Below are positions 14,530 to 46,400 of a stretch of DNA of 64,000 nucleotides, piece by piece. This stretch comes from Phialocephala subalpina (Eukaryota > Ascomycota > Leotiomycetes > Helotiales > Mollisiaceae). A model generated the notes under the pieces. That model had not been told where the DNA came from and made no database searches. It saw only the letters and a list, made by a program, of their open reading frames with translations. Numbering within the stretch: position 1 is the stretch's first letter; every line of letters starts with the position of its first letter. The stretch is taken from the NCBI GenBank assembly GCA_900073065.1, contig FJOG01000068.1:1-64000 (forward strand). The letters are read 5' to 3'. The translations under genes were made by a program, and so were the position numbers.

Positions 14530-14771
14530 TTATTGGAGAGGGGATGGGAAGATGGGAGTTTGTGCTGCGAGTTCTGTCGAAGTTCATGTAGCGGGTGTTG
14601 GTCGTGGACTGGGAGACTTCTTTTGTATGCTTTTGAATTCTATGAATAATGATCTTAAATGTCGGTCCGTCTTCAAGATCGATTGAGAAGAACTTGATTA
14701 GTTGTGCACTTGAGCTTTGATCATTGTGGGTTCAGCTGACAACAAATTTCACAACCAGATTGTCGACCTCG

Positions 14772-15528
14772 NNNNNNNNNNNNNNNNNNNNNNNNNNNNN
14801 NNNNNNNNNNNNNNNNNNNNNNNNNNNNNNNNNNNNNNNNNNNNNNNNNNNNNNNNNNNNNNNNNNNNNNNNNNNNNNNNNNNNNNNNNNNNNNNNNNNN
14901 NNNNNNNNNNNNNNNNNNNNNNNNNNNNNNNNNNNNNNNNNNNNNNNNNNNNNNNNNNNNNNNNNNNNNNNNNNNNNNNNNNNNNNNNNNNNNNNNNNNN
15001 NNNNNNNNNNNNNNNNNNNNNNNNNNNNNNNNNNNNNNNNNNNNNNNNNNNNNNNNNNNNNNNNNNNNNNNNNNNNNNNNNNNNNNNNNNNNNNNNNNNN
15101 NNNNNNNNNNNNNNNNNNNNNNNNNNNNNNNNNNNNNNNNNNNNNNNNNNNNNNNNNNNNNNNNNNNNNNNNNNNNNNNNNNNNNNNNNNNNNNNNNNNN
15201 NNNNNNNNNNNNNNNNNNNNNNNNNNNNNNNNNNNNNNNNNNNNNNNNNNNNNNNNNNNNNNNNNNNNNNNNNNNNNNNNNNNNNNNNNNNNNNNNNNNN
15301 NNNNNNNNNNNNNNNNNNNNNNNNNNNNNNNNNNNNNNNNNNNNNNNNNNNNNNNNNNNNNNNNNNNNNNNNNNNNNNNNNNNNNNNNNNNNNNNNNNNN
15401 NNNNNNNNNNNNNNNNNNNNNNNNNNNNNNNNNNNNNNNNNNNNNNNNNNNNNNNNNNNNNNNNNNNNNNNNNNNNNNNNNNNNNNNNNNNNNNNNNNNN
15501 NNNNNNNNNNNNNNNNNNNNNNNNNNNN
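14772..15528. other. Assembly gap (N run)
   Basis: 757 unknown bases. They hide the 3' end of the minus-strand secreted protein gene that starts at 16601. Apparent long frames across the gap are artefacts of the Ns. Confidence 0.99.
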
Positions 15529-21421: not shown

Positions 21422-21719
21422 TGGAGAGAGTGAGTTGATGAGCTTGAACCTAACAGCTGTTTCCCCAAAGGCGCTAGTCTAGTATAGGCTTAGCGCAGTC
21501 TAGAAAGTCTTATCAGTTTCTCGACCTTTTACCAGTTTCGTTTTGATGATATTATTTTGGCCCTTAAAGGGTTGCGGTGTACAACCAAACCTCGCAGTGG
21601 TGTCCAAGAACGATTGGGACATTCAGACAATCGCGGCCCGCCTCGCCCTCCCAAAGATTTACCGAGCCTGTCTATTAACACACGAAGTTGCGAGTTTAAA
21701 TAGGAATTTCTCAACAGGT

Positions 21720-21780
21720 ACAGTAAAGTTCGAAATCGGCTTCAGTTCCGAATACTCAATGATTTGATTTTCGACCCGCA
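21720..21780 (+). repeat. 61-bp dispersed repeat, copy 1
   Basis: Begins ACAGTAAAGTTCGAAATC and shares about 53 of 61 positions (hand count) with 25251-25311 on the opposite strand. Several differences are C/T or G/A, including CpG to TpG or CpA. The first part translates similarly in both copies (VKFEI-FSS). Origin unknown. Confidence 0.7.
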
Positions 21781-22296
21781 TAATGCCTTCTGCTTCTTGC
21801 GTCAATTATCTTCGCTCTTCCCTGACAGCCGTATTCGAGGATCTCCCTCGAAGAAACCCTTGAATAATTACATGTTGCAGAGCTCCAACATAACATAGTG
21901 AGTGCATAATAGCAATCAGGAGCTCTGCGGCGCCTGGTTCTCCTCTAACGCGCGACAACGGTGCATCGACTTCCTGTTAGCAGACGGCTGTTCACCAGCA
22001 GGAGCAAACACACAAGCAGATTTTGATTTCGGAGCTCAATTTCTAAGACTAACAAGGTTAACAGGCACCAATTTACCTTCAAAGCAATTTGTACTCTTTC
22101 CGATCAAGCTTGCCCTCCAAGCGTGCTCAGGTCAACTTCATAACATTGCAGCTCCAAACCCTTCCGCTTACTTCGTTCTTATGCCTACCAACAACCCACG
22201 TCCTATTACAGAGCTTGCTTAAAAAGAGCTTCTTGGCGAAGAGCTTCGTGAGTACTTGCGATCTTGTCTATAACCTCAGCGGTGGGGCTTGTCGCA

Positions 22297-24368: not shown

Positions 24369-25250
24369 CTGAATCCTCGATGTCCGTCCGGGTATCACCG
24401 AAGCCACACGATAATCACCCAATCATGTCCGGGGCAGCTGAGGCATGCTACAATCACCGACAACGGAGAGTGAAAACTGATGGGCTGAAGTGTTACGACT
24501 TGAAATCCTCGTTCGGCCACTAGGGTCGACCAGAAAAATGTAGAGTACTTCAAGCTCATTAAAGTTTTAAAGAGCGCTCTCCTCTCTTTCTTACTTGAAA
24601 AGATACGAGAGTCACTTCGATAAGTATCAATTGATTATCAAGTGACGAAGAATGGGGAAGTGCACCACTTGAAGGAAACGTAGTGCTGCGAAAGAAAAAT
24701 AGCCCATCAGTTCGATTCCGGTATCAAAGGTAGAATAGCAGGCTCGTTCCAAAGTAGGATTACATATGTGCAAGAAAAACGACCTCCTCTCAACTTGCTT
24801 TTCTTTTCATTATGCTCATCTCATCCATGCATCTACATCTTCCCAAGAACAAAAATAATCAACCACTTCTCAAATATACGCAAGCCACGTATCCATCCCA
24901 AGGCGCTATCTACAACGCATTGCTTCCCTCCCAAACGCCAGCCATGCTTGAATCACACCCCCATTTTCCACCCCTCAATCAGGTCTTTCCAAATGTATTG
25001 TATTCCGACCCAGAGGAGTAGAACTATTATCTGGGTAAAATACAATCGTGGAGGATGCAAATTCAGAGCCAGATTGCTAGAGTATTCTCAAGGATTGATT
25101 ATGTCAGACATGATGCATCAATCTGGTGGATGGCCAGCGACATTAAGGAAGGTCCTCAGGCCGAAGTCCTCGCTTCATGCGCAGCAGGGAAGTCAGCTAA
25201 TGCAGGGGTCTGAAATTAGGCTAGCCGTAAATGGTTAGTGCTGCATAAAA
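24369..25250. other. Intergenic, no gene seen
   Basis: AT-leaning, with scattered short frames on the plus strand (24768-25238) that show no domain. No RNA gene recognised. Confidence 0.4.
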
Positions 25251-25311
25251 TGTGGGTCAAAAATAAAATCATTGAGAGATGGGAACTGAAGCTGATTTCG
25301 AACTTTACTGT
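25251..25311 (-). repeat. 61-bp dispersed repeat, copy 2
   Basis: Inverted relative to the copy at 21720-21780. Lies about 120 bp beyond the stop of the Zn2Cys6 gene, immediately beside a small palindrome (AGAGGCATAGCCTCT, about 25312-25326). Confidence 0.7.
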
Positions 25312-25430
25312 AGAGGCATAGCCTCTGTTTAACTTTGCTTTACCAAAGACTATCGCTGAAACAAAACATTCATCAAACGCTAAGAACCGCAGCAAACACA
25401 AATCTCTGATCCGGCACCGACTTTTGCTGT

Positions 25431-27887: not shown

Positions 27888-29060
27888 TCATATATGACTT
27901 GCTTCATCTTGCCGCAACTTGTCAATAATCTCCATAATCTCCTCTGCAACAAAGCGGGGATCATCCCTATGTATAAGATGTCCAGTGCCTTTCTTGGAAA
28001 TAGGTCCCTTGCTGAGACCTGGCCTCGTGAGTCTCGCAAGACCTTTATTGTATTCGTGCCATTGCGGACCAAAATATAATTCTGACATGATCTTCGGAAA
28101 CTTCACCGCCTGTACCATCATCAGCTCGGAATTCCGCACTGGGTGAAGGATATGCATACTTTCCATATATCTTTAACAAATTTTGCACGATCGTGCTCGA
28201 TGACCGTAACATACGGCGTCCGAGATGAAGGGCCTACGATCTTCGGCTCATCGGAATGTGGGAGAAGAGATGGAAGGTTGCCTCTCCAAAGCCCCTCCTT
28301 ATTCGGGGACGTCGAACCATAGACAGCACCAATGATTCTTCTCGCATCATAGCAAATTTTGGCAGTGACACCATCAGGTAACGATCCCACATCGAAATCA
28401 GGTGCTTGCGGATCTGGGAAAAGAGAGATTGTGTCCGAGTTGGCAAGGGTCGAGTCGACAATAACCAAAGCAGATACTGTCTTCGGATACGCGCCAGCAT
28501 AGAGTCGACAGATCGCGGCGCCAATGGAGCTTGCCACGAATAATATCTTCAAGCAATCGATGCCATCCTCATGGGTTCCAAGTTTCCGTTGTCCAATTTG
28601 CGATACCAGATCCCGAATGTCGTGAGCAGCGTCCAGGCAGTCTCGCCCATGACCCTTAGGTCTACCGGGCATGTCTGCGTTCTTCCCAACCGACTTTCCT
28701 TGTCCCACTCGATCATAAACAAGCATAGGAGGTAGATTCCCAGCACCTTCGAGCTCCAGTAATGCATCGATTGTCAGGTGCCATATCGACCCAGGGTTGT
28801 CGATGCCGGTGGCGAAGACGACTATAGATAAATCAGTATGTGGTTTGAAGTATGATTTGGGAGTCGGGGAGCTGAGGAGCCGAGAGGAGCCGAGTCCGCA
28901 ATACTCGCGAAGAGCTCGACTCTCCATATCTCTTCAAATAAAGGGCACATTCTCACGTACTGAGAGTATCTCGAGGAAGACCTCGTCTTGGAGGTGTGTA
29001 CAATGTACAACTCAGATGAATTGAATTGTCTCTTGCGAGAGGAACGAAGAACGTCTCCAT
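27888..29060 (-). CDS. Alpha/beta hydrolase with introner-like intron
   Basis: The ATG at 29060 gives METFFVPLARDNSIHLSCTL...PRDTL, then the intron 28960-28822, then IVFATGIDNPGSIWHLTID. The nucleophile elbow is VASSIGAA (Ser; the usual first Gly is Ala). Downstream, PQWHEYNKGLARLT and GTGHLIHRDDPRFVAEEI carry the C-terminal His of the triad. Length (about 330 aa) fits small fungal hydrolases; substrate unknown. A one-base shift near 28163 (HDRAKFVKD to YMESMHILHP) separates the body from the last 90 residues. Without correction the protein ends at 28121, losing the His. That break may be real decay or a sequencing error. The intron is the notable part: it matches one in the kinase gene at 43 kb. 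Confidence 0.75.
28822..28960 (-). mobile_element. Introner-like element (intron copy B)
   Basis: A 139-nt intron of the hydrolase. Donor GTACGTGAG, branch-like ACTGATTT and acceptor TCTATAG are all present, and removal joins PRDTL to IVFATG in frame. It aligns end to end with 43727-43855 at about 84% identity (about 109 of 129 aligned positions by hand), apart from a 10-bp tandem duplication (TCGGCTCCTC) that explains its extra length. Both copies can form the hairpin CGAGT-7nt-ACTCG inside an outer GAG(C/T)C/GGCTC stem. Confidence 0.8.
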
Positions 29061-29957
29061 GTTGAATCTGACGTAAGCTATACTCCAGGCTCTCGTGGCT
29101 GGAAAGCAGACCTCTCGCGGCTGAACAATGCTACAAATCCAAAATTTAACGTGCTCAAATAATTATCCGAGCAGAAAAATAGAGCTAATAAAGTAAACTT
29201 TCAAAAGTGCAAGAGATATCGAGTAAGTCCAAGAAAGAAGGTAGCTTGAGCGACATGTTATACCCGCGGCTGACGATGGTAGAGACCCCACCGCCGCGCC
29301 CTGAAAGGGAAGTTCTCCGAGGAAATTGAATCTTAGGCGTAAACAATAGCCTATTCAACTCTTGGGATGGCCGCGATATGAGATCCTGGGGTGCTGCATA
29401 CTACCATGGGATGCAACCTTGAGCCACCATGTCGGGAGGCGTCGCGGTTCTCCTCGTAGCGTATTTAGGTTGCGAGTTCGCCTGCTCTCACTGAAGGGAC
29501 CATCATTGAAACAGCTCAATCCCGTAAATCTGTCGAGCAGGAATGTTGTGGTGATGGGTAGGAGGAAGGTCGTTGCATCGTGAAAATATTTTCGGAAGTG
29601 TTCAAGCACTTCGGCGAGCTTCTTGGACGACGACATGTCTTAGATAAGCCGTAAAGAGACACAAAGCTGCCAAATCCTGCAAGTACACTTCCATCGAGAT
29701 TCATTGTTAGATTTAGATCATTCACATACTTTGAGGCCTGGAAACCACGTGAGATCCTTCTTGACTTGGCCATCAATGGTCACGTGAACTCTTGAGCGAG
29801 GGGTGACCAAGAGTCCAGCTGTCAAAGTTCTCAACTTAAGTGAATACATGTATGATCATGGAGTTCTTAAAATCTGTTGGTACTTTTGCAACTGTCTCGG
29901 CAGTACTGAATCCCGTAGGAAGAGCCTCGTTGTAGAAATGATCAAGTCCCTCAAACT
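29061..29957. other. Intergenic or remnant sequence
   Basis: Minus frames 29355-29636 and 29516-29776 look weakly coding (for example VNDLNLTMNLDGSVLAGFGS and LAEVLEHFRKYFHDATTF) but have no recognisable domain. They may be the decayed 3' part of the adjacent DUF3176-like gene or another fragment. Confidence 0.35.
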
Positions 29958-31138
29958 TCACACCGCTAAAGCCATTCTCCAAAGGTGAATGCCTCTCCTC
30001 CCTTCCTTGATTGATGAGAAGGCAATCGAGCCGTTGAAGTGATCACTGGTTGTGATATTCAGTGACTTTCCAACTGTTCGATGAAAGGAGAGATAGACAC
30101 CATTCGGAAGAGTTCTGACGAGAAGATTTGGCTCGTTTGTGGTGTTGGCTATGTGATCGGAGATATCCACTGTCTGAGAGCACACACTAAGAGAGTGAAA
30201 GATTTCCCAAGTACAGTTTCTTGTCGCGCATTGTGGCTCGAGTAATGCGAGCGGGGAAGAAGAATCGGCATAGAGGCCGGCATTCACCGCGTCTCGCATT
30301 GATGCTGTGATATCATCTGCTCTAAGTTAACGACGCTTATTCCGAGTCTAATGGGTATTATGGCATACCATTTCTGGCACTAATCTGTAGAGGATTCTCC
30401 GATATCGAATCTGCCAGGTAACTGTCTGCTCTTGCTGCGACCGCCGTGTCAACACAAATTGGAAGAGTGGGATAGCTGACTACCTGTTGTGTAACTGGCG
30501 AGGCTGCAGTGGCAATTACGGTGATGAGGGCGCAAGCTCCAGCAAGTTTACTTGATTGGATCAGCACGTACTCTGATGGGACGAGAATGTCTCTCACAAG
30601 ATTGGTAATTTGAAAAAGAAAGTGAAGGATCCCCATGCCCCTCGACTTGCTTCATCAAAGGCGCCAAATTGGACCAGTTTCTTTGCCTTGCCACAGAACC
30701 ACATCCATTTCAGCTGACCTATACACTCGCTGACTGGCTTCATCAGTGCGAGTTCAGTCAACGTCGTCAAGACCGACACCACAGTGTTAAGAGAAAGCTC
30801 GTAAGCCCATTCTGGGACCTTCTTCTGGTTCGATATCTGAAGCACGACGCTAGAGCAGCGATGCAAAGGATGCTGGATGCCCAGGTCGCGACTTCGAAAC
30901 CCCAGTCTTGAATGAACGTCCTGCCGGAGGTTACTCCGTTTCGAGAGAACTCTGCCGATCCGCTCAAGCTTCTCCTTCCTGCCAGGTATTCTTCATTCCC
31001 AATCCCGGTAGTGTTCTTCTCTGATTCGAATCCCTGGAGATCACCATCCACATTGGCGAGAAGGCTCCCACTCGACGGATTCGACATTCGATCAATGTGG
31101 TCCGAATCGGGATTGCGCGGCATTTTTGACGATCGCAT
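29958..31138 (-). pseudogene. DUF3176-family membrane protein, broken
   Basis: The ATG near 31138 precedes a soluble leader, then a membrane segment (WGFEVATWASSILCIAALAS). The DUF3176 hallmark follows: VPEWAYELSLNTVVSVLTTL and ECIGQLKWMWF...FDEASRGAWGS. Introns fit at about 30548-30600 (gtgagag...atcaag, joining LPIF to KLAGACALITV) and at about 30308-30355 (gtatgcc...ttagag, joining SARN to ADDITASMRD). The sequence then continues ASPVTQQVVSYP and CATRNCTWEIF. A one-base shift is required near 30855, between the first membrane segment and NQKKVPEWAYE. The expected C-terminal third is not clear and the frame closes at 29958. The family consists of fungal plasma-membrane-type proteins of unknown function. 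Confidence 0.65.
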
Positions 31139-32725
31139 GGTCCTCTCATGCCAAAAGACGACTAAATTTGAGATAGAAGTCTTCGCGGAAAACGAGGCTG
31201 TAAGCAATGCAAAGGGAAAGTATGATCAAAAAATTAGGCTAGGAGGAGGAACCTGTATAAAAGTATCAGTACGATCCCCTGCGAGGCTCAAATTCCACGC
31301 CTTCCTGATTGATGTTATGCAGCGATGGGCCGAAGTAATGGTCCTTCCTCAATCGATTTTGTTGAATGCAACTCAGTGCTGACACCATACCGAATCTCTC
31401 TGTGCGGGCTTGAGGGACCCTAGCCCTCACAAGGGCGAGGCTGTGCATCTCCACCGGATCTTATTGTTGATGTTTCTCCACATGCAGAGCACACTGAAAC
31501 CAAATTAGCCGCCAACATGTAGACAACTTGCCGTGTGGCTGGGGCTGAATCTCAACGTCCTCCGAGTCGTGCGTGTGAGCCCGCAAGATAATCTGAAGTG
31601 TTACAATGCCGAAAAGCGGACGAAAATCCTAGGGGTTAGGAGGCTCTTGCCAAGCAACAAAGCTTCGTGGTCAGCTATCAAGGACCGAGATAAGTCGTGT
31701 AATACCAACACCATACGCTACCGTTCGAGATTTGGGGGCCACGATTCCATGAAATCTGGGAGCAATTCATCGATCTTTCGGCCAGTAATTGCAAATGTCC
31801 GACGTCACGAGGATTGCTACTCACTATAGAAGTGCTTTGATTAGGCCGTGCATGGCGAAGAATGGTGTGTAATTCGTCCCCATCGTGACTAGAACTATTA
31901 GGAACCGCAATTATACTTATGAGACTGAGAGGAGACGCATAGTCAATGTTATGGTTTGGATTGTGAGAGTATCAAAGAAGAAAAGAAGGAAAATCGTTGT
32001 TGATCTGAAGCGGGAAGGAGATTAAGCTGCGTCGTTCTGGGAAGGTACAACGAGCTAGAGCGGGAAACACTTGTCCTCGTTCCAAAACTACCCTCCCCTA
32101 CTTGAAAACCAACGCTGAATATAATGTCCCTCAGACTTAAAAAAACCCTTTAACTGAGATACGTTACTTCAAAATCAGACAAGCAAAACCACCTCACCAA
32201 CGACAACAAAACACAAGGGAACCACGGATCGAAATTGTTGCGTTACGAATCTCGCATTCTATCTCCATGCCCACTTCACTCCACTCATTCTTCATCCAGC
32301 ACCAGAATGCATGCATCAATCATCTCCGATGCAAAGATTTCACACCTTCCATGACCCCATACCCATTACTATTTACAATACAAACACAAACACCTAATAA
32401 CCCCCCATGCTATGACCAATCGATTCCTCACCCGAGAAAAAAGTAATCTCAATGAGTTCCATAAACGCCGTTTTCTTATGCAGTGCTTCCGTGTGTTCTG
32501 TGTCCCGCCCCGAGACACCCAGAACTAAACGTCTGTATCGTATCATCATGCTGCTTAACTTGCTGTTGAGCAGCTGTGTAATTATATGAAGAGAGGTAAG
32601 AAGGAGAAGAGTGGCGGTGAAAGTCGGCGTGGAATAATGATACAGTGGGGTTGTGAGCCCATAGTGGCTCGGCACGCCGCTTCATCGCCTGGACTGGTGA
32701 GATGGTGGCAGGCTTGATGAATTCT
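31139..32725. other. Intergenic, no gene seen
   Basis: No conserved frame or RNA gene recognised. The part near 32000-32725 is the 3' flank of CDC27. Confidence 0.45.
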
Positions 32726-35301
32726 TCAAGCTGTCATGCTGTTCTCGTAGTCTTCATCATCTTCTTCAATACTCTCGATTGCTTCCTTGATTTGCTGGCT
32801 TGCCTGGACAACATGTTAGCAGAATTAACAAAGAGAACAATGGGAGTGTATACCTTAGGGTCCAAATTCAACGCGATCGTGAAGTGGTGTACAGCAAGGC
32901 CGCGTTCTCTCAGACTCTTGTACAATCTCCCAAGCAAGAAATGTACCATAGCTTCGTCAGGAGCCATGTCTTTCAGAACATTCAGCTCACTCAGAGCTGC
33001 ATGAAGGTCTCCTAATGCCATTAATGTCCGTGCCTTCTTGAATCTGGTCAATGTTGATCGAGGTGCCAAATCGGTAGCCTTGGTGAAGTAGGCAAGCGCT
33101 TGTCGGGGATCCTTCTGTTTCTCGAGCACCGTTCCAATGCAGCAGATCAGAACAGCATTCGTAGGATTGATGCGCGAAGCAGCGTCGAAATGGAAGAATG
33201 CCTTATCATAGCTCCCAAGTTTCTCGTAGACCCGACCAACACCATACCATGCATTGTAATGCCGTTTGTCAGCAGTGATGCCATCTCGATAGGATTTGAG
33301 GGCTTTCTCGTACTCCTCGTTTGCGACATGCTCGTGACCTTGCAGTGTAAACGCGTAGGCGAAAGACGGGTCGAGTTGGGTTGCACGTCTGAAGGACTTG
33401 AGTGCTTGTTCGTGATCTCGGGCTAGTGACCAGGAGTTCCCAAGAGCACACCAAGCTTGCGGGGACTTCCATGACGAATCAATAAGCTCGTGAGCAAGGA
33501 ATGCGAGATCTGTTTCTCGCTTCAAGTGCCATAGGATTGTGGAGTAGATCTCCATATCTTCGTATCGGGTGGGTGCAACCTGTCTGATGCGCCTGTAATA
33601 TTTCTCAGCCTCTACATAAGCTGCTTGCTCATAATAAGCACGGCCGATTTGAGCCATCACCCAAGGAGTCTCCAATTGTTGCCGAGGAAGTTGGTTGTAC
33701 AGCTGTAACGCATCCGCACATTCGAATTTAGACAAGGCGAAATACCCACTGCCAAAAGTTTTGAAGAGATCGAGTAAGAATTTCAAGGCAGCCTCCTGCT
33801 TCACCGAGTCCGGCTCCAATGTCTTTAGAGGAGGTATACTTGTAACGGTGCCAACCCACGACCGCGAACTGGTCTCTCTTTGATCTACATCCATGGGCTC
33901 TTGCTCGACCGGCTTTCTATTTCCACTGACTTGACGACCGACGGTTGAGGTGGTGGAATTTGGTCTCATGATCTTCGATATGGGCTGTCTCGTCTTCTTC
34001 AACTCTCGCCCACCTGGGGGGCCGACACTCGAGGTAGCACTTGATAATTTCGTACTTGTTGGCCGGATTTGATTGAACAGCCTAACACTTCTCCTTTGTG
34101 GCGCGCCCGGATCTTCCGAGCTCTGTCGCGGTACAACCTGCCCTGAAATCGTTCTTTTCCGCTCTTGTGTTGCATGTGAAGAAACACTATTCGATCGAAG
34201 GGCGTGAGCAGCTGCTGATTCTTCGACATGCTCCTCGTATGGAACTGCTCGGGGCATAGGCAGCTTCTGCGATCGTTTTGTAGATATCCCACGGCTCATC
34301 TTCGGTGCATCCACTGAGAAATCCATCCCAAGTCCTTGTAATGTTCGAGTCTTCCGCGCAGGAGCAGGCGGAGCCTCTGTTGAGTACGCTGACACGATAC
34401 CAGGATCCCTTCGGTTCTGAGTCGCATCGATGATTGCGCTTGGCCCTGTTGGTGTTTCCATAGCTTCTGGTCCAATGCCCCCGCCTCCTGCAGCCGGAAT
34501 ATTTGTCAAACTCGGATTGCTCTCGTTCAATTTCTGTGACATCCCCAATGTTCCAAAAAGTCCTCCCGCAAAGCCTCGAGTTGGGACATGATTAAAGGGG
34601 TCTGGGGTCTCGCTGACGACGGACGTGGGCCGAGTGCTAGGTCGATTTCGTTCCTGCTCAGGCATCGTTGAAAGTGTAGATCCCCTGGACGACTGTGAAT
34701 CGAAATCTTCTGGGTAGATAGCCTTTATCGCTGCCTCCATCTCCGGATTCATCTTGAAGATGTTGTTGACTCGCATGTGAACACCCATATCACAGAGACT
34801 CGTGAATGCGTCCCACATGAAGGGATTTAGCTTCAGCGACTCCTCGAAGCAGCGGATTGCCTTAATTCTATCCTCATACCCGTGATAGAGCTTCCCCAGT
34901 AAACATGTGGCGGCGGCTGCATCTGGTAATAGTTGTCGTGATGTTGCTGTATGCCTTCCAAAGTTGTTCTTTGCGCCCCATAGCGCTCTGCTCTTCTCCA
35001 TAGCTGATATTCCTTCCTTGTATCTGTGCAAAGCCAAGCAAGCCTGTGCAAACACGTAGGCACATCCGAGTTGGCCTCCTCTCGACCCCGCCGGCTTCGA
35101 GTATTCGAATGCTGAACCGTAGTCGCCCAAGCGAAGGTGGCATTGTGACAGGAGGTGTGCGGATTCGGTAGATCGACTGTCGATTGCCGCGAGACGTTCA
35201 GCGTAGAAGAGGGCATTCTTGAGGAGGTTGTTGTCGAGGTGATAGTAGACAAGCTGCCGCAGCTGGTTCACCACGCAGGTGTTCGACGGTTTGCTTGCCA
35301 T
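32726..35301 (-). CDS. CDC27: Anaphase-promoting complex subunit 3 (CDC27 / bimA)
   Basis: 841 residues from the ATG at 35301, in two exons (35301-32854 and 32803-32726). The short 3' intron (gtatac...gtccag) replaces a wrong read-through tail with ASQQIKEAIESIEEDDEDYE and stop. N-terminal TPRs (about 1-210) include the APC3 signature LYHGYEDRIKAIRCFEESLKLNPF. A Ser/Pro-rich low-complexity middle follows (about 220-500), then tandem TPRs at about 530-830 (ALGNSWSLARDHEQALKSFRRATQLDPSF; YNAWYGVGRVYEKLGSYDKAFFHF). In other fungi CDC27/bimA is a scaffold of the APC/C ubiquitin ligase and receives the IR tails of activators. The frame is intact. It starts the conserved housekeeping block. Confidence 0.95.
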
Positions 35302-36147
35302 CTTTGTGCCGTGAAGAGAGGAAGATCCTTGGGTCGATTGTAGTTGATGTTATGACGGTCTAGCCATGTAGCCAGAGACCTGACTGATCAGCGGTTATTT
35401 CGATGTCGAGGCCGGTCTTTGTCCGAGCACTCTCTTCTCTCGTTCCTTCTTTGCTGCGCGGTATCTGCGATGGAGAACAATGACGATCTGCGAGCAGTCG
35501 TTACGAGTCGTGAGAGATCATTAGAATTATTGTTGAAAGTGACGTCGAAGGAAATAGTGAATCGATGGCCAGGCGTGATCGAGTACCCGCGAAAACAACA
35601 AGAGCGTCGCCTGAAATAACGAGAGGAAGAAGAGAATCCGCCACACAATCCACACGCCGAAAACAATGGCTGAACTCCGCAAAGGCTGCCGCTGTCAGAG
35701 GAAAAAGGTTGTATGATATTGAAGAGGTTGGCTATAGTAGCTGCGTCAACAACGTTCCTGGTTCATAGCTCTCGCGATGTTATGGTTTGCAAGCGGCGGT
35801 AAAATCTATTGGCTGGGAACGTTGAAGTCTGGCGTAGCAACAGCCAAAGCGCTTATGTCAGCGAGGAGGGGCCAAAGCGACGACACCTTTTCAGCCAGGT
35901 TCAGCCTCGTCTATTATTTTTTACGATTGGAACAACGAGTCTTGTCATTTCACGGGTTCTGAATTCACGATTGGGTGGGATATCTTCTGCCATTCCGACA
36001 TTCGAGCTCGCACCGACGCGACTCGGACTTGAACCAAACCCCAACAGCGAAGCCGAAGCCTTCTTTGATCACTCGCACGCACACGACCGACGTCAATCAA
36101 TTCGAATACCTTCCTCTGCTGACTCTGTACATACACACGAAGACAAG
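35302..36147. other. Divergent promoter region of CDC27 and the TMEM208-like gene
   Basis: 845 bp between head-to-head start codons. Contains several short frames in both directions but no domain. A leader rich in ACA/CGA words precedes the ATG at 36148. Confidence 0.5.
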
Positions 36148-36639
36148 ATGGCACAAAAGGCAAAGAAAGACCGCGCGAAGTCAAATATAGCCTCTCTCAA
36201 CAATCTCCACATCGGAACTCTCGCTATAAACGTCATATTCCTCCTCTTCAACCTTCTCTTCAAGCGCCGATCCCTTGTCGCCTACCTCATCTTTTCCATT
36301 CCTTGCGGAGCAGCAGAATATATCCTCGAGACCACTGGAAGACCGAAGTATGATACCAATACCAAGGCTTTGAAGAATGCTGGCGAGGATTTGTCTGCTG
36401 CCGGGTTGACGGAGTATATGTTTGACATCATTTGGGTCACTTGGTTGAGCTTGATTTGTGTCATTTTCTTTGGCAATTGGGGATGGATTATGTATAGTGT
36501 TGTGCCGATTTATGGCGCGTATAAGGGATATGGATTGTTGGGAATGGCTAGAGGGATGATGGGAGGTGCACAGACGGGGCAGATGCCTGATGAACAGGTG
36601 GCGATGGCTGGAAACAGGAAGCAAAGGAGAGCTGCATGA
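36148..36639 (+). CDS. TMEM208 / Snd2-like ER membrane protein
   Basis: 163 residues with no intron. The start is chosen at MAQKAKKDRAKSNIASLNNL because upstream sequence in the same frame is leader-like. Features: a basic N-terminus, a hydrophobic pair (LHIGTLAINVIFLLFNLLF and SLVAYLIFSIPCGAAEYILE), then DIIWVTWLSLICVIFFGNWG-MYSVVPIYGAY, and a basic C-terminal tail ending in KQRRAA. This is the layout of TMEM208 (DUF788), the Snd2/Env10 component of the SRP-independent ER targeting route in yeast. It is intact and length fits the family. Confidence 0.9.
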   Translation: MAQKAKKDRAKSNIASLNNLHIGTLAINVIFLLFNLLFKRRSLVAYLIFSIPCGAAEYILETTGRPKYDTNTKALKNAGEDLSAAGLTEYMFDIIWVTWLSLICVIFFGNWGWIMYSVVPIYGAYKGYGLLGMARGMMGGAQTGQMPDEQVAMAGNRKQRRAA

Positions 36640-36739
36640 GATGGATGTGGATAGCTCTAGCAAATCTCTAGAAAGGCATCATTGCTGCCAGCAAATACGA
36701 GCCATTTGCTAAGTTCCCCAATCTATTACATTCGGTCTA

Positions 36740-37620
36740 TCATTTCGGTTCGTTTTCCTTGTTCTTGCCCGTCCAGAACTCCAAGTCCTCTTTAGTAGCA
36801 TCCTTCACGAGAACATGCACATGCTCCAGCGCCCTCACGCTCTGCAACGAAACCCAGTTCTTGAACCAAGTCACCCTCTTCGCATCCCCCAGTCTCTTTG
36901 CAAACGTCCCTTTCACAAACTCCTCAATGATCTTTCTACTCTCCTCGGTGACATCTCCTATCGTTCCATCCGTCTCAATAGGTGTCTTGCTCCAGACCAC
37001 AATATGGGTGATATCGGGAGTCAGACCGTACGGCCAATCGTTGAGCAAGATCTTGTAGTCTGGTGTCTCTTTGAAAGGCACAGTGGAGATGTAAGTGAAA
37101 GGCGGAGAGCCCCAGGGTAGACGATGTTGAATGAGGTAGTTGGTCATACTTCCATATTGCTTCTTGATGTCAGCGGACCATGCCATGTACCGGCGAAGGT
37201 CTGATGGCTTCCGCTTGAGAGTCTCGAGCTTGTTCGTAGCTAATGAGAATTAGCTCACAATGTCACGAACAACACAATGGAAATATAATAATAAAATATA
37301 ACTTAGTCACGTGTATCTCAACAACGCCCCTGACTTCAGGGGCAAAGATTGGATGAACACTCGGCTGGAATTTGAAGTCCGATCTCGGAAGGATATTCAA
37401 AATGATACAGAGCTCTGTAACTTTGGACATCTGAAGAGCAGAGGAGAAAACTGGAAAGGAAAGTCTCCCTACCTATGATCACCTTCAGCTCTTCCCAGTC
37501 GTGCAAATGGAACTCCTCATCTGTTTGAGACAGCACCCATCTGTCAACATCGGTGAGAGGAAAGGGAGCTTCCTCCTCCGCAACCTTCCCTTTGTCAAGA
37601 GTAACAGTGTTGTCCCCCAT
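36740..37620 (-). CDS. GIG1-like protein (DUF3605)
   Basis: Two exons, 37620-37473 and 37239-36740, with a long intron (gtaggg...cattag, 233 nt) that joins KVIIA to TNKLETLKRKPSDLRRYM; total 215 residues. The motif YISTVPFKETPDYKILLNDW-P-G and HIVVWSK...FVKGTF mark the DUF3605 family, named from the N-acetylglucosamine-induced protein GIG1 of Candida. Function is uncertain; roles in GlcNAc-linked metabolism have been proposed. Frame intact. Tail-to-tail with the TMEM208-like gene, about 100 bp apart. Confidence 0.85.
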
Positions 37621-37990
37621 CTTATCGCTCTTGACGGTCTACAACTTCGTTGTCCAACGTTGTGATGTGTTCATAGTCAAGATCTAATCTAATCGATCGT
37701 GATCCATGTACGCCGGGAAACTGGTTCCCAAAAAGGTTGAGATGAGCGGAACCGAGACCGCTGCCGAAGCTTAGCTTTTTCCGGCAAAACGAACCACAAC
37801 TTCTTGACATCTCCAGGTTTGACAAAAGTCCAGACGTTGCTCGACAACTTTCCTCCTGCTTGTCTGGCATCTTGTCTCGGACATCTATCTTCATCTGACC
37901 CAAGATTTCTAGTCGCAGACTCAGGACAGCGACATTCTACCTCAACATCGATTTGGAAATTCCCCCAACAATATCCCACCAGAATTTACA

Positions 37991-39153
37991 ATGGCCAGCC
38001 CATTCCTGTCGAAGGAGTATATCAATGGCGTATATATTCCATCTGGACTTCTGGTTGTCGGTACCTTGATTGTCAAGCAGGAATGGCTTCCTTATGCTAT
38101 ACTTCTTGCGCTTGCTCTGGGCGGATTCAAGATCTTCAATAGTAGTATGTATTCGCCCGCCCACTTTGTGGCAGATTCAATACGTCTTTGAGAAGTCAAT
38201 TAACACCATTTTTAGGTGCCAAACCGGTCCTCAAGCCTGATGCTTTCCAAGATTTCAAGCTCACAGAGAAGACAATCATTTCCCACAATGTCGCAATGTA
38301 AGTTGAACATCAACCCCAACCTCACACTATGCTAACCTCCATAGCTACCGATTCAAACTCCCCACCCCAAACTCAATCCTCGGTCTGCCAATCGGCCAGC
38401 ACATCTCCATCGCAGCTACTCTGCCCCAACCAGATGGCGCATCAAAGGAAATCGTTCGCTCCTACACGCCCGTCTCCGGTGACCACCAACCCGGTTCCTT
38501 CGACCTCCTCATCAAGTCCTATCCCACCGGTAACATCTCGAAACACATGGCATCGCTCGTCGTTGGACAAACAATCAAGGTCAGAGGACCGAAGGGCGCC
38601 ATGGTCTATACCCCCAACATGGTTCGCGCTTTTGGTATGATTGCAGGAGGAACTGGAATTACACCCATGTTGCAGATCATCCGTGCTGTAATTCGAGGCC
38701 GTCGTGCTGGTGACAAGACGGAGATTGATCTCATTTTCGCCAATGTCAATCAGGAGGATATTTTGTTGAAGGAGGATTTAGACACATTGGCAAAGGAGGA
38801 TGCAGGATTTAGGGTTCACTATGTTCTTAACAACCCACCTGAGAAGTGGACTGGTGGTGTTGGGTTTGTTACACCAGAGATGATTACGGTATGTCCCTTT
38901 TGCATGTTCTCGGTGTCTGGCTTCATGCTCGATATTGAGTCCCATTGTCCCTGCATCAAACTCCACTTGCGACTCCCGATCAATGCTAACTATGTACCTC
39001 CAGAACTGGCTTCCTAAGCCCGCTTCCGACGTCAAGCTCCTTCTCTGTGGTCCTCCTCCCATGATCTCAGCTATGAAGAAGGCCTCTGAGGGTCTTGGCT
39101 TCACCAAGGCAAGACCAGTTAGCAAGTTGGAAGATCAAGTCTTCGCTTTCTAG
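37991..39153 (+). CDS. NADH-cytochrome b5 reductase
   Basis: 309 residues in exons 37991-38144, 38216-38297, 38345-38888 and 39004-39153; every junction restores the frame. An N-terminal membrane anchor (LLVVGTLIV...[13 protein letters not shown]) is followed by the FAD domain with [20 protein letters not shown] and GNISKHM. The NADH domain then shows [14 protein letters not shown] and CGPPPMI near the C-terminus, ending in VFAF. It transfers electrons from NADH to cytochrome b5 at the ER or mitochondrial outer membrane for sterol and fatty-acid desaturation. Equivalent to fungal CBR1/MCR1-type enzymes; the short anchor favours the CBR1 type. Confidence 0.92.
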
Positions 39154-40646
39154 ACGATAGAACGACGCCACGAAGCGTTGGTGGGTGGCAGGTAATGCAA
39201 AAGTAAAATAATACATAACGTCTGGCAATGATCTTCATTAGCGGCGTTCTGGTTATTGCAGCATGCTGGGACAATGAGACTTGAAGCGTCCTGAAGACTT
39301 TGCTTAGAGATGAACAGCAGAAAATATGATGTTAATTTGCTGAAAGTTCGTCCTATTCTCCTCATGATTTTCACGCACTTGAAACCTTCAAGCAATTAGG
39401 GCGGAGATTGAAGATTATGTCGCATTAATATAGGTACCGGTAGCAAGGTTGTATCACCTGTTTCAATCCTGCGAGTGCATGCCCAAACAATTCAAATCAT
39501 CTTAGGAATTCTTGTATTTCAATTTTCCCTCCCTACGTTACTTATTCTGCTGTTTCGCACAAGTCTTTGGCACCAATGTGCGTCTCGCTGCGCCTAGTTC
39601 TCAGCTCAGACGACGGTTCTTGCGTTCCTCCTACCTACCACCGAGCGCGGGAGATTGACGGTCCTGAGCATTCCTTCCTGTTATGTCCATCAGTATCTTG
39701 GATTACGCTCACCACCTTTTTTAGCACCAGAGCTCCTTCTCTCACAACCCAGCCATCCCTCTATCCATTGGCCCCCGCCCAACACCTTCCTCACTACCCA
39801 GCGTTCCTTCTCAACAGGCACCGCACCTCTTGCTCACGACACAAGCCTCTCACCACACTGGGTTGCCACCTTATATTCTCGTCCTCCCCCTTAGAAAAGA
39901 AAGCCCTCCAAAAAAAAGAAGGGGAGGCAGAAATCTTTCTTTTCTAAGGGGGAGGACGAGAATATAAGGTGGCAACCCAGTGTGGTGAGAGGCTTGTGTC
40001 GTGAGCAAGAGGTGAGCCGACGCTCCTACATTCTCATGCTATGTATGCTGGGAAAGATGTCACGTCGTCGTCGCCGTCCACCGGTTCCTGCAGCCTCCAA
40101 CCTCAAGCCTACACCGAAACCAGTCACCCAGCGACGTCCAGCACATCTCGCCAGTCCACCACTACCTGGTACGTTCAATGCAGGTCGCCCTTCAACATCA
40201 TCTCGACGCACGGCCACGAAGTCCGTCGTCCAGTTACTGCCTCTGCCATCTGTCACGCGTGGACTCAATCTCGTTCAATGGGCGACCATCTTGTCAGCGA
40301 GCACTGATTGTGTGAACAGCATTCACGAAGAAGTCATCGACTCGAAGCTTCCAACCTGCGAATGTCGGTAAATTTGACACGTTTTGCAACCTGTCCTGGT
40401 TCACTGGCTGACTTGAGACATTCTCTGATCCTTCGCCTGACCCGGCCCCCTCTGTGTAGAGTTAGCAGACCCCTTCATCATCCTCGAAAAAATCACCACC
40501 GGCCTCTCGAGGTGCGCAAGCTCGTTCACATGACGGACTGTACAACTGTGATTCGAGTCGTACTGTACACTTTCGTCCGCATTCACGATTCGTCGTTTCT
40601 TCGAAGCTTTCGCAAGTTTTTGTTTATTCTGCTCGTTGTTCCAGGT
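39154..40646. other. Intergenic with long perfect hairpin
   Basis: No gene with a recognisable domain. Overlapping frames at 39567-39947, 39982-40371 and 40308-40913 span or flank the inverted repeat and probably arise from it or from antisense of the HeLo gene. Confidence 0.45.
39824..40014. repeat. 80-bp perfect inverted repeat, 31-bp loop
   Basis: Arms 39824-39903 and 39935-40014 are exact reverse complements over all 80 bases, starting CACCTCTTGCTCACGACACA. The 31-bp spacer (39904-39934) is A-rich and itself holds CCTCC...GGAGG. Identity ends abruptly on both sides. Either a recent inverted duplication / foldback element or an assembly foldback artefact. Confidence 0.95.
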
Positions 40647-42603
40647 CTATACTTTGATTTCCTGCAAGTTCTTGGTGATGAGCTCATAGAACTTTGCCTG
40701 CAGCTTCGCTCCAACAAAAACATCCATCTCATCAGCCTCTTCCGATATTCCAAACGCTGTCACGCCCTGCAGACAAGACTGGATGACGCCGTACAGGTTG
40801 TCCCCCATGTTACTCTGCACGTAGTCCAAATACCGCCCACTCAGCAGTTTCCCTCTCATCATTGCAGTTTCGCTGGGTCTTATTTCTTCCACTTCCTTGA
40901 AGCCAAGGATTGATTCAATCGTATCCCAGTACGATATCTCCAGGAGAATGATGCCAAGGCTGTAGATGTCATGCCGCTTCTTGTAGCTCTTTCCTTGCGC
41001 AGTATCTCGTGAAAGTCCTTGAACTTGAGGATGCCGGTACAAATCATGCAATACGTCTCCAGTCGGTCGTTCCGTCATGTCATTCCGTTGAGCTGGCCTG
41101 GAATAATCGAAACCGGAAAGATACGGCTTCGACAGGTCGCGATTTCCTTCTACTGCATCGAAGAACAAGAGGTTTTCACTTCGAAGGCCTTTGTGCAACC
41201 AATTGACTGCATGTAGCTTCTCCACGCATTCGACTATGGCTCTTGCTAGTGCAAATCGAGTCGTCAGACTTGGGACTCTCTTCTTCCTATCTTGGAGAAG
41301 CTGGGATAGCGAAACTGGTTTTGTGCTAGGTGCCACACCGGTTGGATTTTCGAAGACGAGGCCGAATCGAAAAGACGCGTCTTCCTTATTTGTATTATGG
41401 CGGATGTATCCCAAGCATGGCACCGCCGTGAATTGCTGTGTTCTTGTGTTCTCCCTAAGCAGAGCAACAAGTGCGTCAAGGCGACTGATGATTTTGTGGC
41501 CTTGCCCCACTCCTGGTGCACCTTTCACCTCTCCAGGCTTCCACTCAATCCAAACATGGCGATCTCTGCCCAACCTTGAGATGTACCATGCATCTGTTCT
41601 GTGATCATCATCTATGCTGGAATGATGGGTGAGCAACTTGATGCTAGTCACGGGTATCTCGCAGGATGTAATGTCTTCGACTGACTTTCCCAGCTCAAGT
41701 CTCTGCGCGAACTCATCCGTCAAGGTGTCCATTTCCATCGCCGAGCCTAAAGCTTTGAATTGCGCAAGACCCGTGAGATGTCTGGACTGATCGGAATCGC
41801 TGTACAAGCCCTGCACCCGATCATAACCGCCCCTCATCACCATCTGGTGTCCTTCATTTGAATCCTTGGTCAAGTGGACAGCCAACCCCGCTTCCGCGAT
41901 TTCCTGCAGATGATTTAGCTTGTCGTTTAGCTGTATGATCATGAAGTCCGTTCTCATCTGGCGCGTCAATAACATCTCCATTTGCTGTGTGTTGAGGAGT
42001 TCAACTAAATAATTGTTCAATCCTGAGAGCTTGCCTAGGAGTTCCTCGAGCGACTTTTTATCGGACATCGCCCAACGCAGCTTCGCTGGGAATTTACTCG
42101 TTTGCGCGATGAACTTGGTGCATTTCTCCAATAGGTCTCCAGAATGTGGGAATCGGTTGCAGAATTCCTCCTCGCTCTCGGAGACGTCTCTGATTTGCCT
42201 GTCTCGACTTTGGGTTTCCAGCTCCTCCGCAATCAGTGGGTTGACCAGTGGCTGTAATCGACCATCAAGTCGTCCGAATTGCATCAAGAGCCGCCTTTGC
42301 TGATCCAGTACATCTATGATGATGTTTTTGCTGTATCGGTCGATTGCGAGAGTTTCATCTCGTTCTGTCAACTTGGTTACTGTGGCCCAGTCGAGAAGTC
42401 GGCATTGTTCTGTTTTCACTCGGACCCGGAGATATTGGTATTCTTTAGCTAGGCCGCGTGCTTCTGAGAGCAATTGATACGCTGGTGGGGGTGTTAGAAA
42501 TTGCGTTTTGACAAGGAGGGGAATGTGTTGTACCTGTTACGCATCCTGAGAATATCTGAAAAGTTAACGAGACTAGTCCTAGACTTATACCAACTGGATC
42601 CAT
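40647..42603 (-). CDS. HeLo-domain pseudokinase
   Basis: 634 residues in two exons (42603-42534 and 42481-40647; intron gtacaa...caccag). The N-terminus MDPVGISLGLVSLTFQIFSG, followed by YQLL-EARGLAKEYQYLRVR and LLDWA, is a clear HeLo domain (as in HET-S). In HET-S this domain inserts in membranes and kills the cell when activated. Helical sequence follows to about 230, then a kinase fold from about 290 to 630. Key catalytic residues are missing: HRD is HKG (about 453-455, WLHKGLRSENLLFF) and DFG is GFD (about 480-482, YLSGFDYSRP). HDIYSLGIILLE is the conserved alpha-F segment. The fold is retained but catalysis is unlikely. No amyloid repeat is evident. It lies head-to-head with the kinase fusion gene. 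Frame intact. Confidence 0.88.
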
Positions 42604-43467
42604 CGTTCTGTATATGCAAGCTCGTTGTTTGACAAATTGTTGCCAGGTATATTTGAAGGTTTAAGAAAGAGGCAATCGCGATGCATCAATATTTAGGCAT
42701 TGTCTTGAAATTAAGCGAAATGCGCCAGCTGCGAACTATAGATCGAGATGGATGATGAAGTTTGGAGGAATTGTGAGTCGTGACGAGGCTGTGCTTAGGT
42801 ATGTTGACTTCTGCTCCTCGGTGAGGCAATAGTGGGATACAACTTCGAATTAGCGCTGAATCAGGCTGCAGAAGCCTCAAGCCCCGTTCAGGTTTCTGCA
42901 CACCATCGAGGCTAAGCTGACCAATCTCCAGGCTTTGATGTCCCAGCTTGACGCCTTTTCGGCGAAGCGGTCATACGACGAGGCTGTCGACGCTGCTATT
43001 GATCAGTTGTGGTATCCCAATCATACTGAACGCCACCATGCCCTGTGATGCAACTCAATCGAAGTTCTCAGTCAGCGAAATGTGGGGATCTTCACGACAG
43101 ACGTGAGTCGATCCCGCCTAAATCATGACGTTGGGGGCCAAATGCTTCATCTAAGGATTTCCTTTGGCTCATTCCAACGAGTTAAGCTAACGTTACATCA
43201 ACACTTGCAAGATCACCGTAAGCTGCGCCTCTCAAACGCCTTGAAAGTCCTTGAGAGTTGATGTCACAGAAGAGGGACAATGTCCGAACTATATATGGTG
43301 ATTGGTATGACCACCCTAAAACATAAGGCTTCAGCCAGGTTAGTCTATTGGTACTTTGCAACCCCTCACCCCACAACATCAATCATATAATAATGACTGA
43401 TGCGTAACCAGGGTCGATAAAACTTCCCATCCTAGGTTCAACTTTTTGATGAAAACCAGTCGCAACA
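42604..43467. promoter_or_regulatory. Shared divergent promoter region
   Basis: 864 bp between the start codons of the HeLo pseudokinase (minus) and the kinase / AIG2-like / ankyrin gene (plus). Contains the control regions of both. I see no clear TATA box or repeated operator. Confidence 0.5.
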
Positions 43468-46400
43468 ATGCCGAGTCAATACCATAAACCAACTGTAGAG
43501 GATGAGGATGAAGAAGGATCCATGCCCTTCCCCTCTGAAGCACAATTCAACCGAGCACTTGATCAGTTTCTCCCACAACTTGACGCGATACTGGGCTTTA
43601 AACAAATCATTCGCGACAATGTTTTCACTCGAATCACGGAAATACTACAGACCTATGGAAAGGGAGAATGGAGCTTGCGGCCACGAACGTTCGCCATCTT
43701 GAGAATGCTAGGCTGCACTGAACTCAGTACGTGAAATTCTTCCCTTTCTTTGCAAAGATATTCAGAGCCAAACTCTTCGCGAGTACTGCGCACTCGGCTC
43801 CTCAGCCCCTCGACTCCCAAGTCATACTTCAAATCTCATACTGATTTCTCTATAGTGGACACTTTCGTGCGCGAGAATCGGCTTGACATCTTCCTACCTT
43901 ACAACGAAAGCAATCTACCCGATGCTATTAAAGGCGAAGAATATCGGACGAAATTCCTCACATTGCAAGAAACTGTGCTGCCTCCATATCATGTCGAAGA
44001 CCTCGAGAGCGGAGGTGATCACGTGCATTTCAGTGCACTCGCTGATGACTACTTCCCCTCCCGGAGAACACTCGATCAAGGAGAATTCAGCACAGTCGAT
44101 CATGTCTACAGCAGTCTCAGTCTCCGTCAGTATGCGCGAAAGAGAATTCGCCGGGGACGGTCCTCGAAGGAAGACATGAGGCTTCTTGCTCAATTCGAGA
44201 ATGAACTGCAGGCAGTGAAGAAAATGTCGCATCGACATATCGTCAAACTCAAAGGTTCCTACACAGATCCATTTTGGGTCGGGCTCATTATGACGCCTGT
44301 TGCTGATGGAGATCTTGAGGAGTATCTGAGTCTCCCTGATACTACCAACATTCGCAAACAATGCCTTCGAACATTCTTCGGATGTCTTACAATGGCAATG
44401 GGCTATTTGCATCAACACAACATGTGTCATGGCGATGTCAAGCCTCGAAATGTTCTGGTCAAGGATGGACAATGTTTGCTAACGGACTTTGGAACCACGA
44501 GATTCTGGGAGGATGACGGAAGGAGCACGACAAACTCGATAGCTGCATGCACCGTCAGATACTGTGCACCAGAAGTCTATGACAAGAAGGTAAACGATTT
44601 CATCTTCCCCAGCAAGCGAACTAAGCTAACATGCTTGAACAGGGTAGGGGGCGTGCCACTGATATATGGTCATTGGGTTGCGTGTTCCTGGAAATGGCAA
44701 CCGTCCTCTGCGGTTCTTCTCTAGAGAAAATGAGAGACTTCTACGCCACCGAAGGAACTCAAGGACCATACGCTTGGAATAATCTGGATGCGACCTCCGC
44801 TTGGATACACAAACTTCAGAGCAGCACCGCCGCGGGAGACGACACGGAACCACTTGAGTGGATTTCTGGGATGCTCGAGTATTCTCCGAGTGAACGACTT
44901 GTGATCAGCCAGGTCAAAGGAGTTATCATCGATGCTCATGGCGAGCATGCGTTCATGTGTAGAGATTGCATGGACGAGACGCATGAGCCAGACATACAGA
45001 CAAGTCCAGTTGATACGCCAACAATCAGCTTCCCGAAGATAGTGCAGAGCCTGTTGAAAGGAGATGTCTCATCGTCAGAGAAAGATGGGATGGTCACTGC
45101 TAGTATGCTGAATATTCCAGAAAGGTCAGCCAAGAAGTGCATACCGAAGAAGTAAGTTCCTAAAATCACCCCCTTGAGTTCATGTTAAAAATATTAGGAT
45201 CCATTTCAAACGCTCAGCGACTCCTTCTCCTGTCCGTGAGCATTCATCTCACGAAGAGCTGCCGAGTACGAGAACCGTGGATGATGCGCTATCAGTCCCA
45301 TCAACGATTACCCCGCCGTCGTCACCGAAAGTGTCCAAGGCGAAAATTGCTACCAATTCACCGACGACAACTCCTCAATCGCCATCATCATCTCGAGTCA
45401 GATTTGGCTTGTTACCAGAAGAGCTACGACCTTCGGCGCCAGTTGATCCACTGGAAGAAGACGATGACACTTCGTTCCCGCTTCCCGAGCCTTTAAATCA
45501 TCCACCCTTATGCAGTAAAGATTGTTTCCCACTACCAAAATCTACACTATCGCCCTCCTATATCCTCGCAGGATGCAACCACTTCTCACTCAATGAGATC
45601 AACTTTGCGAAACGCTACTCCACGACCAATCTCTTCGTCTACGGTGGATTGATGTTCCCTCATATCCTGCATTCCATTGCAGATAAATCCATCAAGGGTG
45701 TATATTCGCCAGTCCACCAACGTCGTCTTTACCCAACCTCGATGGACTGGGCAAGAGCTGACGACTCGATCAAAAGTGCATGTGGGAATATGACTCCTGC
45801 TAGGTTGAAAGGCTTCGATCGATGGAGAGTCTCAAAGCTGGATTGGGCAGTCATCCAAGATAATCGCCTGACAGGGAAGATCCTCCGAGCTCGGGAAGCC
45901 AAGAACTACTATCCAATCGAGCCTCCACCATCCGGTGAGGTTTTTGGATTCCTGATCCTCGGCATCACGGAAGAAGCATTACGGTATATTGACATGCTGC
46001 TTGCGACCACCGAAAAGAAGAAGAAGAAAGATCCATCGAAGTCGGGCAGCGATGACGACGAACATTCTGGATCCGAGGGCGGGTCAAAAGCGATCAATCC
46101 TGCAGACAGGCCTCTACAGAGACAAGTTGTTAAAGTAGATGTTGAACTTATGAACGGCGAAATGGCCTCTGTCGATGCTACGACATATGTCTATGCGCAC
46201 GGGATGAAAGACCTCAGAGGTCTCTGGAGTCCAGAACGTTTCCTACAATCTCGGAAAGCAAAACAGTTGCTGAGAAACGAGACAATGCTGAGGACCGAGG
46301 AGCAGATATTAGCCTCGACAATGCAGATCTCATATGCTTTGACAGGTGACTACCTGTGCAGCACGATCACGACTGGGAATTACGATGAGCTCCAACGACT

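Follow-up and report, generated by a model that had tools for sequence, protein, structure and literature searches.

Introner-like elements in a helotialean fungus, with a preferred insertion site for each family

Introduction

The birth of spliceosomal introns has occupied biologists for a long time, and the introner-like elements of fungi belong to the few cases observed close to the event. Those of van der Burgt 2012 are reportedly elements of Dothideomycetes. Here we analyse 64,000 nucleotides (nt) of DNA from contig FJOG01000068.1 of Phialocephala subalpina (the window), in which a hydrolase-like gene and a protein kinase gene carry look-alike introns, together with the genome around it. 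We take these two introns to be copies of one introner-like family (family A) that multiplies as complete spliceosomal introns, coexists with at least two further families (B and C), and is inserted, as they are, seamlessly, on the coding strand and at a family-specific site; we put the probability of this reading at about 0.86.

The closest described systems are the Dothideomycete introner-like elements of van der Burgt 2012 (described in PMC8469720 and PMC3443670). Like the elements reported here, they are introns similar over their full length in unrelated genes, with several families per genome, recent copies and a predicted secondary structure. They differ in host, which here is a Leotiomycete, and in insertion site (the slash marks the point of insertion): PMC8469720 attributes a preference for AG/GY to van der Burgt 2012, whereas we find CA/TNG, N/TG and T/GG. 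They also differ in copy number, with hundreds in Collemare 2015 (PMC4457414) and tens per family counted here as lower bounds. According to PMC8469720, Torriani and van der Burgt favour a model in which a process resembling reverse splicing puts intron RNA into transcribed DNA.

The sister [D1,2] stwintrons and symmetrical introns of Hypoxylaceae and Xylariaceae (PMC8469720, PMC12403724) share with our elements the seamless insertion and an inverted-repeat structure, the latter being clearest here in family C. However, [D1,2] stwintrons are nested twin introns at sites reported as random, whereas the present elements are single introns with a strong family-specific bias. The sites of 288 stwintrons are described as seemingly random, without nucleotide bias at the exon borders (PMC12403724), and a similar statement is made for Hypoxylon (PMC8469720). 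No donor split by an internal intron was found, GTACGT being intact in both window copies and GTRNGT in the 28 aligned copies of family A. Algal and protist introners (Gozashti 2022, PMC9860276) resemble ours as intron-creating repeats that are enriched in genes and form several families per genome. Many of them have target-site duplications (TSDs) and terminal inverted repeats (TIRs), or borrow a splice site from the target, whereas in families A, B and C both splice sites belong to the element and no clear duplication is seen. Gozashti 2022 describes the ascomycete introner families as outliers without TSD or TIR.

No introner report for Leotiomycetes was found in the full-text literature, supplementary tables being outside the scope; the one paper that mentions both introners and Leotiomycetes, PMC3510045, treats two Dothideomycetes according to its abstract. 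A helotialean genome may already be present in the supplementary tables of Gozashti 2022. What we describe are fungal introner-like elements; no report was found for their host lineage. Such elements are hereby extended to a helotialean lineage, and the family-specific sites are new as far as the literature seen goes. Reverse splicing, random ligation at breaks and transposase activity predict different insertion-site statistics, and three families with near-identical recent copies and a sharp site for each make models of intron birth testable in this genome.

Results

Two look-alike introns in unrelated genes

The features of the two interrupted window genes are as follows, with the evidence for each.

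28822..28960, minus strand: introner-like element, family A, 139-nt subfamily; phase 1, codon A/TC, in an alpha/beta-hydrolase-like open reading frame (ORF)
28955..28960, minus strand: 5' splice site GTACGT (sequence; kept among copies)
28832..28836, minus strand: branch-site-like CTGAT (sequence; kept among copies)
28822..28827, minus strand: 3' splice site CTATAG, followed by an exonic T (sequence)
28121..28821, minus strand: downstream exon of the interrupted hydrolase-like gene, open frame ending at 28121 (ORF and frame test)
28961..29162, minus strand: upstream stretch of the hydrolase-like gene, 67 open codons before the intron (frame test, locus L031)
43727..43855, plus strand: introner-like element, family A, 129-nt type; phase 1, Met codon A/TG, in a protein kinase gene
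43727..43732, plus strand: 5' splice site GTACGT (sequence)
43841..43845, plus strand: branch-site-like CTGAT (sequence)
43850..43855, plus strand: 3' splice site CTATAG (sequence)
43766..43799, plus strand: predicted hairpin core, AGCC at 43766-43769 with GGCT at 43796-43799 (consensus fold of 28 copies; no two-sided changes)
43468..43726, plus strand: upstream exon of the kinase gene (joined protein aligns across the junction in homologues)
43856..44724, plus strand: downstream exon of the kinase gene, Pfam PF00069 (open frame ends at 44724)

The first-pass annotation of this DNA had estimated by hand that the two introns are about 84% identical, and end-to-end alignment gives 108 identical columns out of 129 ungapped ones (83.7%), or 78% when the 10 gap columns are counted. 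Both introns start with GTACGTG, contain the branch-like CTGAT and end with CTATAG. Their whole difference in length is a second copy of the 10-base unit TCGGCTCCTC in the minus-strand intron, so that the tandem duplication proposed earlier is real. It had also been held that similarity stops at the splice sites between unrelated exons, and this is what we see: the flanks share CTCA before and T.G after the intron and are otherwise without clear similarity. This small likeness agrees with the insertion-site preference of family A described below. The two genes are unrelated by reading, the plus-strand host being a protein kinase and the minus-strand host an ORF that reads as an alpha/beta hydrolase. 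In the frame test the hydrolase-like locus, in phase 1, has 67 open codons upstream and 233 downstream of its intron; the kinase gene likely has a further intron near 44724. The earlier call of an introner-like element is supported.

The annotation had named Dothideomycetes as context, and as a hint to the host this did not hold. The lineage is Leotiomycetes, near Acephala/Mollisiaceae: a CDC27-like gene in the window shares 94% identity with Acephala macrosclerotiorum and 89% with a Mollisiaceae isolate (Leotiomycetes, Helotiales).

Family A is dispersed through the genome

In the 68.1-Mb assembly (119 contigs), four DNA searches and one core pattern, when merged, place family A at no fewer than 65 distinct sites, that is at least 65 (35 plus, 30 minus), and two further families came to light, in line with the earlier expectation of many copies genome-wide. 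These counts, like those of families B and C, are lower bounds, as only the best candidates of each search were scored. The 31-nt core pattern of family A matched 51 times, against 0 for its reversed control. Chance likeness of the two window introns is excluded, because the family occupies so many places and its core pattern so clearly exceeds the control. No exact match to this pattern was found in IMG/VR or GTDB contigs, both poor places for fungal sequence.

The copies are similar as whole introns: 35 of the 40 scored matches of one DNA search, query included, reach from the first base of the intron to the last (1-129). The earlier annotation had named flanking exon homology, pointing to gene duplication, as what would speak against it; when family A was masked and the fetched loci, together with the window, were compared all against all (E up to 1e-6), no DNA similarity was seen between different loci except for families B and C. 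Median pair identity is 81% for A, 90% for B and 86% for C, the last two taken from the best pattern matches only. The best pairs within each family are 98-100% identical with gaps ignored, which argues that the families spread recently.

For the flank tables 61 of the 65 family A places were used, leaving out L003 (decayed acceptor), L059 (unclear 3' end) and the two copies of L070 (boundaries not assigned). In the first 49 loci, BLAST matches define where most copies begin and end; donors were set by eye at L023, L024, L030 and in 14 copies outside those 49 loci (13 of them tabulated). A pattern served to place the acceptors of these 14 copies and of families B and C, where the AG is therefore present by construction.

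At L003 the acceptor has decayed to CTATAT, making this copy a candidate for a dying element or for a shifted 3' splice site. L070 (C82:63200-63950) holds two family A copies in tandem about 40 bp apart, one possibly inserted beside or into the other.

The copies interrupt coding frames

In 51 family A copies the upstream flank spans 1 kb or more, and for these we determined the longest frame running through the joined exons. Its median length is 239 codons in sense and 92 in antisense, the sense frame being the longer in 47 of the 51 copies and reaching at least 100 codons in 45, which indicates genic placement on the coding strand. The best frame upstream of the junction matches the best one downstream in 31 of 51 copies, and in 24 of the 36 whose arms both have at least 50 codons, where one third is expected (p about 5e-5 each). 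The copies have GT and AG ends and a branch-like motif, and frames and domains are restored in most of those tested. Ten joined proteins, hand-chosen among the longer joined frames, were scanned against Pfam, and all ten matched a family with the junction inside the match; the families include transporters of the sugar or major facilitator superfamily (MFS) type, a methyltransferase, a glycosyltransferase, a glycoside hydrolase, an alpha/beta hydrolase and an HET protein, among others.

Conserved motifs also run through the junctions. TGRPHCGYFVP of yeast tyrosyl-tRNA synthetase passes through one family A junction, conserved His included, as does VIHEFGH of myroilysin through that of an HExxH protease, again with the conserved His (the fungal protein reads VVLHEFGH), and PESPRWL of the transporter GlcP through that of L006. 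The kinase junction (43726/43856) is covered by 118 of 120 listed homologues, 112 of them gap-free within 8 residues, with Ile (52), Met (31), Leu (22), Val (12) or Arg (1) at the split codon. We infer from these sequences that splicing removes the copies in vivo and that they are new gains.

Families B and C

The two other families were met by chance, as repeats with a GT start and an AG end in the masked comparison of fetched loci and window. Family B reads GTATGTATAA...CTTCTTGTAG and is mostly 104, 112 or 120 nt long (112 and 120 being commonest), with length steps of 8 nt that lie in the hairpin region. Family C reads GTRAGTGTCAATTTC...GACAAACAG and is mostly 163-165 nt long. Pattern matches in the genome number 82 for B, with 41 on each strand and 1 match for the reversed control. 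For C there are 56, of which 29 lie on one strand and 27 on the other, and its control has none. Copies are located as follows.

Family B: L016 1895-2014, plus; L042 2062-2173, plus; L012 about 2319-2438, minus; and loci L074-L093
Family C: L009 about 2262-2430, minus; L041 about 2043-2213, minus; and loci L094-L113

Flanks were read for 23 copies of B (20 fetched and 3 from other loci, of 82 matches) and for 20 of 22 copies of C (of 56 matches), L095 and L102 being left out for want of a recognisable end and L104 and L105 kept with a shortened end. The fetched copies of both families are the best pattern matches and not a random draw. Since B and C surfaced within only about 230 kb of sampled DNA, more families may exist. 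Kinship of A with B was considered and set aside: a 22-nt match scores 29 against a shuffle maximum of 28, which is too weak to call.

Each family favours its own short site

The three families each favour a short site of their own, CA/TNG for A, N/TG for B and T/GG for C. Over 61 family A copies the exon bases are C at -2 in 41, A at -1 in 45, T at +1 in 36 and G at +3 in 39, and the full CA/TNG is found in 20 of 61 copies, compared with 0.5% in the local exon background and 0 of 37 ordinary introns predicted by pattern. The preference correlates with the donor: among the 38 copies with a GTRCGT donor, 37 have A at -1 and 26 have an A/T junction, and the 23 copies with other donors (GTATGT and GTAAGT among them) also use T/GG, which accounts for 7 of 61 copies overall. 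In family B, TG follows the insertion in 21 of 23 copies (3 of 37 predicted ordinary introns), T/TG being used as well, and in family C the site is T/GG in 11 of 20 (1 of 37), with G at +1 in 18 of 20. Set against the local background, the preferences have binomial p values of 5e-31 for A, 9e-24 for B and 2e-14 for C. These serve only as a guide, because the sites were picked once the data had been seen and because the copies of B and C are the best pattern matches.

The intron phases of family A are 2 (21), 1 (18) and 0 (5) in the 44 copies whose sense frame has at least 100 codons and exceeds the antisense one. On short flanks, 17 family B copies have just one open frame, and 14 of these are in phase 1. 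The predicted ordinary introns are in phases 0 (17), 2 (13) and 1 (7). A palindromic target was also considered for A, whose consensus resembles CCA/TGG, and was rejected since the two halves do not co-vary.

The sites probably existed before the introns

At several junctions the bases of the insertion site were probably there before the introns, because the closest homologues have the same Met or Trp, residues that have a single codon each. The STL1-like transporter gene at L012 holds one copy of A and one of B. Around its B junction the closest listed homologues that cover it (P0241-P0246) read STIPMYQSE, so that the A/TG site there was probably an existing Met codon. Over the 108 covering listed homologues the residue is Val in 58, Met in 16, Thr in 16 and Ala in 14, others making up the rest. 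Only 33 of these 108 alignments are gap-free around the B junction, probably because an intron just upstream had not been removed from the query. Around the A junction in this gene, 118 of 120 listed homologues are gap-free, which means that nothing was added to the protein. At L006 the T/GG site is the Trp of PESPRWL, which is Trp in GlcP too. In addition, one copy of A (L064) and two of C (L109 and L110) each lie in T/GG where a WRW motif has its first W, and the three genes, all different, read as MFS transporters. One codon thus seems to have been hit repeatedly, as would be explained by the site preference.

Exact target duplications of at least 3 bases flank 3 of 61 copies of A, where permuted flanks lead one to expect about 1; the three are at L012, L028 and L071. 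The raw counts, given without permutation, are 1 of 23 for B and 0 of 20 for C. There is no clear excess of target duplication, and insertion looks seamless. A 6-bp duplication at L028 (CACCAT) was rejected as a target duplication: the encoded GPGTITMGL reads as an ordinary methyltransferase motif, which we take it to be.

Predicted folding

Median folding z values are -1.17 for A (61 copies), -2.12 for B (23) and -3.75 for C (20), compared with -0.19 for 20 predicted ordinary introns, so that the effect is weak for A; family C has a 14-pair subterminal inverted repeat and a strong predicted fold. In the consensus folds, built from 28 A, 19 B and 15 C copies, the C/T difference that had been said to keep a stem paired as G-U is indeed present (columns 42/71, CG in 26 and UG in 2 of the 28 A copies). 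It is a weak sign, as 0 of 8 consensus pairs has a two-sided change. The earlier suggestion of retained folding thus stands as far as the z values below those of ordinary introns go, and not in the base-pair changes.

Discussion

According to the mechanism that we propose, a new copy would split an existing codon of an exon between two of its bases, seamlessly and in coding-strand orientation, and would then be removed by the spliceosome. What moves would be the intron RNA after its excision, joined in at a single bond through transcription-linked chemistry akin to reverse splicing, a step on which we would place roughly even odds, and the sequence or structure of the intron itself would influence where the copy goes. 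Such a route fits the seamless single-bond insertion, the presence of both splice sites inside the element, the coding-strand placement and the folded intron.

Several observations weigh against this interpretation. Reverse splicing alone does not predict a separate site for each family, and selection could account for the missing antisense or intergenic copies. The antisense frame is the longer one in 4 of 51 family A copies and reaches at least 100 codons in 20 of 51, and for B the frame test on short flanks is uninformative, with 23 of 23 copies open in sense and 19 of 23 in antisense. The homologous proteins are continuous across the kinase and the L012 STL1-like junctions; such protein alignments, though, do not reveal the gene structure of the homologues. 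Exact duplications lie beside 3 of 61 copies of A where about 1 is expected. Finally, two-sided base-pair changes occur in 0 of 8 pairs of A, 0 of 13 of B and 1 of 25 of C, so that covariation does not demonstrate conserved folding.

Three explanations may be offered for the separate sites: the intron RNA helps to recognise the target, a nuclease or transposase with sequence specificity is at work, or splicing filters the survivors. The most far-reaching version is that three unrelated or barely related families each insert seamlessly at their own short sequence in pre-existing codons, with different families entering the same Trp codon of different transporter genes. We hold this tentatively, as a possibility with the odds against it. 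If it is true, intron birth would be sequence-directed, the intron RNA helping to choose the site, and would be neither random capture at breaks nor a proto-splice-site effect.

Among the alternatives, the elements could be non-autonomous DNA elements resembling miniature inverted-repeat transposable elements (MITE-like introners), with splice sites at the element ends and moved by a transposase that recognises a short site and leaves no duplication. Transposases typically have site preferences that vary from family to family. The 14-pair subterminal inverted repeat of family C points the same way, and Gozashti et al. 2022 (PMC9860276) report signatures of DNA transposons for most introner families other than those of ascomycetes. 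However, exact duplications of at least 3 bases are few in all three families, the one at L012 adds nothing to the protein, and that at L028 lies in what we take to be an ordinary methyltransferase motif. A terminal repeat is not evident in A or B, as judged by eye only, and the sense frame is the longer one in 47 of 51 copies of A. We consider this explanation unlikely, although it deserves to be taken seriously.

The preference could also arise after insertion, if copies survived only where the exon ends suit the donor of the family. In family A the flanks do follow the donor type (A at -1 in 37 of 38 GTRCGT copies, and T/GG also with GTATGT or GTAAGT), and a bulged pairing of U1 with CA before GUACGU is conceivable. 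Nevertheless, it is in the downstream exon, at +1 to +3, that B and C have their strongest signals and A has much of its own, and there the 37 predicted ordinary introns have no preference. That the main B and C signals sit beyond the acceptor, with none in ordinary introns, weakens the idea of a splicing filter, which strikes us as rather improbable.

An ordinary dispersed repeat inside pre-existing introns, or a shared intron copied along with duplicated genes, might be suspected from the large families (sugar/MFS transporters) to which some interrupted genes belong, but is very improbable when 35 of 40 matches run exactly from donor to acceptor and the masked all-against-all comparison shows no similarity between loci except B and C. 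Helitrons end in TC...CTRR, and a Helitron-like rolling-circle insertion between A and T without duplication, recalling the A/T junction of 26 of 38 GTRCGT copies of A and the lack of a clear target duplication, is hardly credible for elements that end in GT...AG and that enter mainly T/GG (C) or also T/TG (B).

Other features of the window

Tandem repeats of about 30 nt occupy 5665-5753. The ORFs listed at 14717-16142 include a stretch of N (X in the translations) and are therefore meaningless there. A 63-nt repeat is present at 21719-21781 and 25250-25312 in inverted orientation (87% alike) and occurs at no fewer than 17 places in the genome (at least 17). A large palindrome at 39824-40014 has fully complementary 80-nt arms around a 31-nt spacer, and diverged direct repeats at 60694-62272 are spaced in part by about 181-185 nt.

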